Shown: positions 11,077 through 22,473 of the stretch, piece by piece | Layout: each line of letters opens with the position of its first letter | Position numbering within the stretch: position 1 is the stretch's first letter | Assembly: GCF_000020005.1 (NCBI RefSeq) | Contig: NC_010718.1 | Span: 2,996,001 to 3,060,000, forward strand | Source: Natranaerobius thermophilus JW/NM-WN-LF | GTDB taxonomy: Bacteria > Bacillota > Natranaerobiia > Natranaerobiales > Natranaerobiaceae | Reading direction: 5' to 3' | DNA: 64,000 bases | Position numbers and translations under genes: made by a program | The notes under the pieces: model-generated | Told to the model about the DNA's origin: nothing | Databases searched by the model: none | What the model saw: only the letters and a program-made list of their open reading frames with translations

Positions 11077-12744
11077 ATGTGGCTCGAGGACAAGAATAAA
11101 TTAAAAGAATTACTAGATCGGTTAGTAAAAGTACCTAGTATATCAGGGACCAGTAAAGAACAAGGTGTTGCAGAAGAAATTCATAAAATCTTATCAGAAA
11201 TACCCTACTTCCAAGAAAATAAAGACCTACTTCATATTAATAAATTACCCGGCGATAGTTTAGAAAGATCCTACGTAACTGCCCTTTTAAAAGGTAAGGG
11301 CAATAAAACTGTTATTTTACTTCATCATCACGATGTAGTTGATGTTCAAGATTATGGGAATTTAAAAGAATATGCCTTTGATACCGATACAATCACTAGT
11401 AAAATGGAAACTTTTGACCTACCATCAGACGCAAGAAAAGACCTAGAGAGCGGTGAATGGTTATTTGGACGTGGTGTAATGGATATGAAAGCAGGAGCAG
11501 CATTACAACTAGCCCTAATGCACGATTACTCTCAAAATATAGAAGATTTTGATGGAAACATTGTACTTGTGTCAGTACCAGATGAAGAAAATAACTCCAT
11601 CGGAATACTATCAGCAGTTCCCCATTTAAATAAGCTAAAAGAAGAACATAGTCTAGAATACAGATCTGTTATCAAAAGCGAAAGTCATCAACCTGATGAT
11701 GAAGGAAATAGTGATATAGCTATCGGAAGTATTGGAAAGATCTTACCTTTCTTTTACTGCTTCGGAAAAGAAACTCACGGAGGTAATCCCTATGGAGGAC
11801 TTAATTCTAGTTTAATATTTTCTCAAGTAGAATCATTAATGGAATTCAATACCGATTTTTGTGACAAATTTAGAGGAGAACTAACACCACCACCAGTTAA
11901 TTTAAAGCTCAACGATTTACGAGGAGTATACAACGTAACAACTCCCCAAGTAACAGTAGGGTATTATAATATCCTAACAATTACATCAAGCCCTTATGAT
12001 ATCTTGCAAAAAATGCAAAAAGTAGCAAAACAGGCCTTAGATAATGCAATCAAGATTTATGATAACAGCTTTGACAGTTTTGAAGAGTTAGCAGGAGAGG
12101 ATGGAATTGATAATTCTTGGGGAACAAGTGAAAAAGTCAGCAAAAATTGGGATCCAAAAGTTTACACTTTTGATGAACTATACAATTCTGCTTATCAGGC
12201 TTCGGGCGAACAATTCTTAGAAGCATATAATCAGGCTGCAAAAGAACTAAAAGAAACAGCTCAAGATGAGCGAGAGTTCTCTCTTCAACTAGTAGATAAA
12301 GTACACGACTACTGTCCTGATAGAAATCCTAAAATAATTGTAGGTTTTCTGCCACCTTTCTACCCCCATGTTAAGAACAACAGAGAAACGGACAAAGAAA
12401 ATTATATGCTAGAAGTAGTAGAAAGACTACAACAAGAAGGGAAAGATAAACATGGAATTCATTTTAATGTGACAGAGTTTTTCAAAGGTATCAGCGATCT
12501 AAGTTACTTCGCGGTACCCGAAAGTGAAGATATTGCTAAGTATATGAATCCCAATATGCCAGCTAATAACCATGTTTACAATCTACCAATTGAAGAAATT
12601 AGTAAACTTGATGTATCAGTCATTAATGTAGGGCCCATGGGTAAAGATGCTCATCAATACACTGAACGACTGCATATGCCATTTTTCACTGAAAAAGCAC
12701 CTAAAATTCTAGAATTTACTGTTAATGAAATACTAAAAAATTAA
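11077..12744 (+). CDS. rocB: RocB-type M20 metallopeptidase, copy 1
   Basis: A 555-aa cytosolic member of the M20 peptidase family related to RocB of arginine catabolism. It has the zinc-ligand motif HHHDVVD (83-89), then GRGVMDMKAG, SVPDEENNS with the catalytic Glu-Glu, and VIKSESHQPD. Its actual substrate is not established in the family; a peptide or N-substituted amino acid is likely. A close paralogue lies at 20797-22473 (about 70% identical over the first 90 residues by eye). The start ATG follows AAGGAGG. The gene has its own sigma-54-like promoter and terminator, so it appears monocistronic. Confidence 0.88.
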   Translation: MWLEDKNKLKELLDRLVKVPSISGTSKEQGVAEEIHKILSEIPYFQENKDLLHINKLPGDSLERSYVTALLKGKGNKTVILLHHHDVVDVQDYGNLKEYAFDTDTITSKMETFDLPSDARKDLESGEWLFGRGVMDMKAGAALQLALMHDYSQNIEDFDGNIVLVSVPDEENNSIGILSAVPHLNKLKEEHSLEYRSVIKSESHQPDDEGNSDIAIGSIGKILPFFYCFGKETHGGNPYGGLNSSLIFSQVESLMEFNTDFCDKFRGELTPPPVNLKLNDLRGVYNVTTPQVTVGYYNILTITSSPYDILQKMQKVAKQALDNAIKIYDNSFDSFEELAGEDGIDNSWGTSEKVSKNWDPKVYTFDELYNSAYQASGEQFLEAYNQAAKELKETAQDEREFSLQLVDKVHDYCPDRNPKIIVGFLPPFYPHVKNNRETDKENYMLEVVERLQQEGKDKHGIHFNVTEFFKGISDLSYFAVPESEDIAKYMNPNMPANNHVYNLPIEEISKLDVSVINVGPMGKDAHQYTERLHMPFFTEKAPKILEFTVNEILKN

Positions 12745-20400: not shown

Positions 20401-20545
20401 GAAAATAAATAAACCTCTGACAGGTAGGTCCATAATGGAACCTACCGCCAGAGGTTTTTATCCCCACGGTGTGACACCTTCAAACAGGTGTCTTGTACCC
20501 CTCGGACCAGACATCTTGTTAGATCGGAACCCTAGGTACACTCCC
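20401..20545 (-). promoter_or_regulatory. ykkC-family riboswitch with intrinsic terminator
   Basis: On the minus strand the leader contains the ykkC landmarks in order: CTAGGGTTCCG (20525-20535), GGTCCGAG (20501-20508), CACACCG (20467-20473) and GGGGATAAAA (20456-20465). Stems TGTACC/GGTACA and GACACC/GGTGTC enclose them. The expression platform is a long stem (20412-20419 with 20449-20456, and 20423-20428 with 20441-20446) followed by TTTATTTATTTT. GGGG of the last motif can pair with CCTC of the terminator arm, so ligand binding should prevent termination. Whether it senses guanidine, ppGpp or another variant ligand cannot be decided by eye. Confidence 0.85.
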
Positions 20546-20796: not shown

Positions 20797-22473
20797 ATGT
20801 GGCTGAATGATGAGACAAAATTAAAAGAGATTCTCAATCGGCTGGTAAATGTCCCTAGCGTTTCAGGAACCACAAAGGAACGAGGTATGGCAGAAGAAGT
20901 TTATAATATAATGTCCGAAATACCATATTTTCAAGAAAATCAGGAATTACTAAACTTAAAAAAACTGCCTTATGATGATTTAGACAGATATTATGTCACT
21001 GCATTACTTAAAGGTAAGGGAAGTAAGACTGTTATTTTACTACATCATCACGATGTAGTTGATATCGAAGATTTCGGTAGTCTTCGTGAATATGCTTTTA
21101 ATCCTGAAAAAATCACAGAAAAAATGGCAGATTTTGATTTGCCAGAAGAAGCTAGAAAGGATTTAGAAACTGGCGAATGGCTTTTTGGACGCGGAGTTAT
21201 GGATATGAAATCAGGAGCTGCTCTTCAAATTGCATTGATGCATGATTATTCCCATAAAATTAATGAGTTTGACGGAAACATTGTCCTGGTGTCAGTTCCT
21301 GACGAAGAAAATAATTCTGAAGGTATTTTATCGGCTGTGCCACATTTAGTAGAACTAAGAGACAAGCATGATTTAGAATACATTTCTGTAATCAAAAGTG
21401 AGAGTCATCAACCTGATTCTGAGGGAAAAAATGATATAGCAATCGGAAGTATCGGAAAGATTCTTCCATTATTCTATTGCTTTGGAAAAGAGACCCATGC
21501 CGGAAATCCTTTCGGTGGATTAAATTCAAGTCTGATATTCTCACAAGTAGAAGCTTTAATGGAAAAAAGTCCGGAATTTTGTGATGAATTCAAAGGAGAG
21601 TTAACTCCTCCCCCTGTTAATTTAAAATTAAATGACCTGCGAGGAGTTTACAATGTCACTACACCTCAAGTAACTATAGGATATTATAATGTTATGACCA
21701 TTAATTCTAGTCCCTATGATGTCCTAGAAAAAATGAAATCTATTGCTAAGCAAGCCTTAGATAATTCCATCGAAATTTACAATCAACGTTATGATGGATT
21801 TCAAAATCTAGCCCCCGATGGTGTGGAAAACTCTTGGGGTGTTAGTGAAAAAGCTAGTCTCAACTGGGAACCAAAAGTCTATACCTTTGAGGAGCTTTAT
21901 AATTCTGCCTATAAGGCCTGGGGAGATGACTTTTTAAATGATTATAACGAAACTGCCGAACAACTTAAAGAATCAGTAAAAGATGAGCGGGAATATTCGA
22001 TTCACTTGGTTAACAAGGCCCATGATTACTGCCCGGACAGAAATCCCAAGATAGTTTTAGCCTTTTTACCTCCTTTCTATCCTCATGTTAAAAATAATAG
22101 AGAAACAGAAAAAGAACAATTTATTCTAGATGTGGTTGAAAATATCAAAAAGGAAACTAGAGAAAAATTTGGATTAGAGTACAAGGTTACCGAGTTTTTC
22201 AAAGGTATAAGTGATTTAAGTTTCTTTTACGTACCTGAAAGTGAAGATATTGCCAATTACATGAACCCCAATATGCCAGCCCTCAACCGTGTTTATAGAT
22301 TACCTATTGAAGACATAAGTAAACTCGATGTTTCAGTTGTAAATGTGGGTCCTGTTGGAAAAGATGCTCATCAATATACTGAAAGATTATATCTACCCTT
22401 CTTTACTCAAAAGGCGCCACAAATTTTAGAAATTGCCGTTAATGAAGTTTTGAACTACAATACCAAGCAATAG
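20797..22473 (+). CDS. rocB: RocB-type M20 metallopeptidase, copy 2
   Basis: A 558-aa cytosolic M20 peptidase, closely similar to copy 1 along its full length, with the same HHHDVVD, GRGVMDMKSG, SVPDEENNS, VIKSESHQPD and DAHQYTERL blocks. The ATG follows GGGAGGGG. It is transcribed away from the riboswitch-controlled operon and convergent with opp-2. The upstream gap shows no sigma-54 signature like that of copy 1, so the two paralogues are probably regulated differently. The function is presumably in peptide or arginine-derivative breakdown; the substrate is not known. Confidence 0.88.
   Translation: MWLNDETKLKEILNRLVNVPSVSGTTKERGMAEEVYNIMSEIPYFQENQELLNLKKLPYDDLDRYYVTALLKGKGSKTVILLHHHDVVDIEDFGSLREYAFNPEKITEKMADFDLPEEARKDLETGEWLFGRGVMDMKSGAALQIALMHDYSHKINEFDGNIVLVSVPDEENNSEGILSAVPHLVELRDKHDLEYISVIKSESHQPDSEGKNDIAIGSIGKILPLFYCFGKETHAGNPFGGLNSSLIFSQVEALMEKSPEFCDEFKGELTPPPVNLKLNDLRGVYNVTTPQVTIGYYNVMTINSSPYDVLEKMKSIAKQALDNSIEIYNQRYDGFQNLAPDGVENSWGVSEKASLNWEPKVYTFEELYNSAYKAWGDDFLNDYNETAEQLKESVKDEREYSIHLVNKAHDYCPDRNPKIVLAFLPPFYPHVKNNRETEKEQFILDVVENIKKETREKFGLEYKVTEFFKGISDLSFFYVPESEDIANYMNPNMPALNRVYRLPIEDISKLDVSVVNVGPVGKDAHQYTERLYLPFFTQKAPQILEIAVNEVLNYNTKQ

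Follow-up and report, generated by a model that had tools for sequence, protein, structure and literature searches.

The leader on the minus strand at positions 20549-20432 was identified as a well-supported member of ykkC subtype 2a, probably responsive to ppGpp. Judging from its sequence, we consider it likely that this RNA is a transcriptional ON switch, by which starvation would turn on the scavenging of peptides and acyl-amino acids. The leader adds to a known riboswitch class, and its notable points are the peptide-scavenging cargo and the natural variation at positions 96 (G96) and 49 (G49). The stretch of DNA analyzed, referred to as the window, was 64 kb long; it lies on the main contig (bases 2,996,001-3,060,000), and the genome measures 3.19 Mb. 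The original prediction had set the element at 20401-20545; a minus-strand leader was indeed found at that place, but the proposed extent left out the initial few bases of the aptamer.

The Rfam model RF00442 matched positions 20546-20444 of the minus strand with 61.1 bits (E 9.2e-11 in a search of 281 bases), and it was the sole Rfam family that matched the leader well. The Rfam check suggested with the original prediction thus returned a significant ykkC match, in agreement with the ykkC landmarks noticed there, though the score lay 1.9 bits under the gathering score of 63 bits. Due to this shortfall the leader is absent from the default Rfam table, and Rfam at the gathering threshold alone was rejected as a test, as it would yield a false negative for this leader. 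A covariance model (R1) built from 39 other 2a leaders recovered the leader with 94.1 bits (E 3e-23) as the only match in the 64 kb, and it was the 15th-best match of that model among 398 genomes.

The subtype was assigned by comparing profile HMMs of the 2a, 2b and guanidine-I classes. The guanidine-I and 2b references were taken from 398 genomes of the phylum, and the 2a leaders were collected by a pattern scan of GTDB contigs. All of the 105 leaders were classed correctly in cross-validation (105/105). The window leader, which was held out, scored 77.8 bits with the 2a profile, 65.5 with 2b and 25.7 with guanidine-I, and a 2a profile retrained on an independent set of leaders, in whose collection the pattern played no part, scored it at 77.3 bits. 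With the same profiles, the purK leader of the same genome (L003) scored the opposite way, as 2b. The classification by sequence therefore backed the ppGpp type that had been favored originally.

The ppGpp contacts reported in a crystal study (PMC6031431) are A5, G6, G48, C75, C77, G104 and G105, and all seven bases were present in the window leader. In the numbering of that ppGpp co-crystal, A5-G6 are located at 20542-20541, G48 and position 49 at 20501-20500, and A74-C75-A76-C77-C78-G79-U80, of which C75 pairs with the guanine of ppGpp, at 20472-20466 (all on the minus strand). The P0 helix, which is absent from guanidine-I (PMC6031431), was found at the aptamer ends, where the 5' arm AUGGGA (20547-20542) pairs with the 3' arm UUCCAU (20440-20435). 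The P0 pairs covaried in the wider leader set, with three of four changing on both sides and 100% of the cells paired. The upper P3 stem consists of four pairs with U80 below in 2a and of three pairs in 2b. The window leader had the 2a form, with the 3' strand CCUC followed by U95 and G96 at 20454-20449.

Two positions of the pocket were atypical. At position 49, guanidine-I has A and the 2a and 2b types have a pyrimidine; at position 96, the PRPP type has G and the ppGpp type has A, C, U or no base (PMC6031431). The window leader carried G at position 49, where nearly all 2a and 2b leaders had a pyrimidine. Among the 2a leaders, G49 was seen in the window leader and in a leader of a sister genus (L006) only; an apparent G in L107 and L135 arose from loop parsing errors, and both were corrected in the tally. 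Since the contacts reported for ppGpp do not include position 49, G49 was treated as a variant within 2a, and this filing is provisional. Position 49 alone was rejected as a subtype mark, as G also occurs in two guanidine-I leaders of SMR genes (L025 and L031), which carry it at the position of the class-marking A.

Position 96 was G when the alignment was anchored on the conserved GCGG and U when it was aligned on the 3' end, and the authors of PMC6031431 called the alignment around this position uncertain. Among the 2a-type leaders with a 6-nt 3' strand, 40 had A, 3 had U and 3 had G (the window leader, L001 and L192), and L202, overlooked by the parser, also had G96. L192 and L202, from one genome of a different lineage (G361), are 2a-like and precede ilvB and gltB-like genes. 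Because these two keep amino acid cargo with G96, this base alone probably does not mean PRPP here. As both G49 and G96 are atypical, we can only infer the ligand, ppGpp being likely and PRPP possible.

A sigma-70 promoter was located upstream of the leader at 20608-20580 of the minus strand, with TTGACA (20608-20603), a 17-nt spacer and TATAAT (20585-20580), in agreement with 12 of the 12 consensus positions. An intrinsic terminator hairpin at 20457-20411, behind which a U-rich tail reaches about 20401, was detected by folding (−31.7 kcal/mol, z −8.1, 0 of 200 shuffles equally good) and had been overlooked by a terminator scan with a strict tail rule. The segment 20457-20435 was common to the terminator and the aptamer; this overlap takes in the 3' strand of P3 and that of P0, and the 3' end of the aptamer forms the left half of the terminator. 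The antitermination-capable terminator proposed originally was thereby located.

We proposed that, in the ligand-free state, P3 and P0 would each lose their 3' strand to the terminator hairpin and transcription would stop ahead of the amidohydrolase gene. Upon amino acid shortage, Rel would produce (p)ppGpp, the guanine of ppGpp would pair with C75, and the pyrophosphates would be held by A5, G6, G48, C77, G104 and G105. The bound ppGpp would stabilize P0 and P3 and block the terminator, the polymerase would read into the amidohydrolase and opp genes, and the cell would then take up peptides or acyl-amino acids and cleave them. The ppGpp aptamers are ON switches, in which a ligand-stabilized P1 (P0 here) resists invasion by the terminator (PMC10687018). 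The genome encodes one RelA/SpoT protein and also CodY. In Bacillus, CodY, a protein sensor of GTP and branched-chain amino acids (BCAA), controls opp and dpp; this control likewise leads from starvation to peptide uptake, but through a protein sensor, whereas an RNA would serve here. Rel/ppGpp and CodY may be two starvation controls acting in parallel, and with CodY present, the main control by nutrition may lie elsewhere than in the riboswitch.

All genes of the operon were on the minus strand. The first one (20339-19167) encodes an M20D amidohydrolase of the aminoacylase, hippurate hydrolase and carboxypeptidase family, which matched TIGR01891 with 383.8 bits (cut-off 153.75) and Pfam M20; with the CpsA model it scored 397.7, under the cut-off of 500. 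It is followed by genes of an OppA-like solute-binding lipoprotein (19127-17544, SBP_bac_5, 266 bits), OppB-like and OppC-like permeases (17534-16614 and 16614-15664) and OppD-like and OppF-like ATPases (15559-14558 and 14558-13536), the last four assigned by family search. The successive gaps from the amidohydrolase gene through oppA, B, C, D and F were 39, 9, overlap, about 105 and overlap, i.e., the genes were close-packed as one operon. The ABC genes belong to the peptide/nickel/opine family and the OppB narrowly passed the NCBIfam model "Opp2B nickel permease" (351.6 vs 350); hence a peptide is the likely, though unproven, transported substrate. With this one correction on the substrate, the cargo was that named in the original prediction, an M20D amidohydrolase and oppABCDF, and its remark that such cargo is atypical for guanidine-I holds.

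The link of 2a leaders with peptide genes recurs, and the opp cargo is not a one-off. A second copy in the same genome (L001) and the sister-genus leader L006 precede orthologous oppBCDFA operons; base 96 is G in the former and A in the latter. In two other genomes, 2a leaders were found ahead of oppB-oppC (L175/L221, with the ordinary A96) and ahead of oppA-oppB-oppC (L111). The leader L206/L222 precedes two genes, one for a membrane protein that matched no Pfam family and one for an M20D amidohydrolase sharing 45% identity with that of the window. The 2a leaders L195, L203 and L206/L222 stand before a membrane protein of ~391-396 aa that is paired with a peptidase or a metal-dependent hydrolase; the two copies tested matched nothing in Pfam, and the protein is possibly an unrecognized transporter. 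The other 2a leaders examined, some 50 of them in the phylum set, preceded genes for the synthesis of BCAA, glutamate-synthase-like genes, ABC transporters of BCAA, SNF-type transporters or natA-type ABC genes; this cargo was assigned by eye except where a family search was made.

The 2a cargo listed in the literature searched comprises genes for making BCAA and glutamate, for transporting BCAA, and natA, and opp cargo for ppGpp riboswitches was not found there, a scope that did not extend to the gene list of the primary ppGpp-riboswitch paper. The window leader shares with the 2a ppGpp riboswitches of Desulfitobacterium ilvE and Clostridiales bacterium oral taxon 876 the P0 helix, the 4-bp P3 with U80, the ACACCG motif, all ppGpp contacts, the terminator overlapping P3 and P0 and, as proposed, the amino acid starvation logic. 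It differs from them in G49 and G96 and in the M20D amidohydrolase and oppABCDF genes that it precedes. The apparent direct RNA-based ppGpp regulon would thereby be extended from the making of amino acids to their scavenging from peptides. Additionally, L001 and L006, standing before orthologous operons in sister genera, offer a natural pair on base 96 and ligand choice outside an engineered mutant.

The main alternative concerned PRPP. If G96 flipped out and paired with C75, it would exclude ppGpp and the operon would track PRPP; we regard this as unlikely. Base 96 alone shifts the specificity of the T. mathranii aptamer about 40,000-fold, G96 in an engineered 2b scaffold weakens the binding of ppGpp about 50-fold (91 vs 1.8 μM; PMC6031431), and PRPP is said to rise under amino acid starvation (PMC9481103). 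G96 is found in the window leader and L001, and the fold, P0 and G96 are shared with the 2b PRPP riboswitches of T. mathranii, L003 and L005. However, those have a 3-bp P3, a pyrimidine at position 49, a P0 of the GAAA/UUUC type and purine-gene cargo; the 2b signature of G96 within CCC-NG-GCGG was matched here in its G96, but with a 4-bp stem and amino-acid-type cargo. The profiles favored 2a over 2b by 12 bits and scored the unmistakable 2b leader of purK the other way, the pyrimidine that holds a metal for PRPP is replaced by G49, the sister-genus leader L006, before the ortholog of the L001 operon, has A96, and G96 recurs before ilvB and gltB-like genes. A hybrid is possible though doubtful, in which the 2a scaffold with the PRPP-type G96 (window leader, L001 and L192/L202), in the window also with G49, would control peptide scavenging with a specificity that has moved to PRPP, to both ligands or to some other nucleotide.

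A ykkC variant for NDPs (2c), for the 2d ligand or for a new one would agree with the two atypical positions and with the ligand switching for which ykkC is known (PMC7266159). It is quite improbable, as every ppGpp-contact base is kept and the cargo consists of neither NUDIX/HAD hydrolases nor EamA/TauE. A guanidine-I riboswitch whose operon would process a guanidino compound was the other type considered originally, and we find it very improbable. RF00442, its model, is the only one Rfam has for the leader, the two share the general ykkC scaffold, and G49 occurs in some guanidine-I leaders as noted. However, its profile scored 52 bits worse than 2a, the leader has ACACCG and not ACACGG, and it carries the P0 helix and GCGGUAGG, in place of which guanidine-I has GGGAG; guanidine-I also has A at the equivalent of position 49 and SMR or carboxylase cargo. 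SMR guanidine exporters were looked for in the genome and none was found, so that guanidine-I was rejected on genome content as well as on the profile and the pocket bases. The two atypical bases could also mark a degenerate or non-functional relic, but the perfect promoter, the intact overlapping terminator, the intact contacts and the opp-linked leaders kept in two genera make this hardly credible. The ppGpp-responsive 2a switch thus remained the preferred reading.

Several other features of the window were observed. Two RocB-like M20 peptidases, 73% identical, are encoded on the plus strand at 11077-12744 and 20797-22473 and flank the opp operon. The arginine link drawn from them in the original prediction was not supported; the genes of these M20 peptidases lie outside the operon and are transcribed divergently. 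A second opp operon without an Rfam leader lies at 28444-22834 of the minus strand and forms a peptide-use island with the first operon and the RocB-like pair. A TPP riboswitch at 61487-61382 of the minus strand precedes a HAD-type phosphatase gene (61285-60605), plausibly for a thiamine-phosphate phosphatase, and a similar HAD gene was present at 132-821. A group II intron was located at 5862-4116 of the minus strand, together with its reverse transcriptase.
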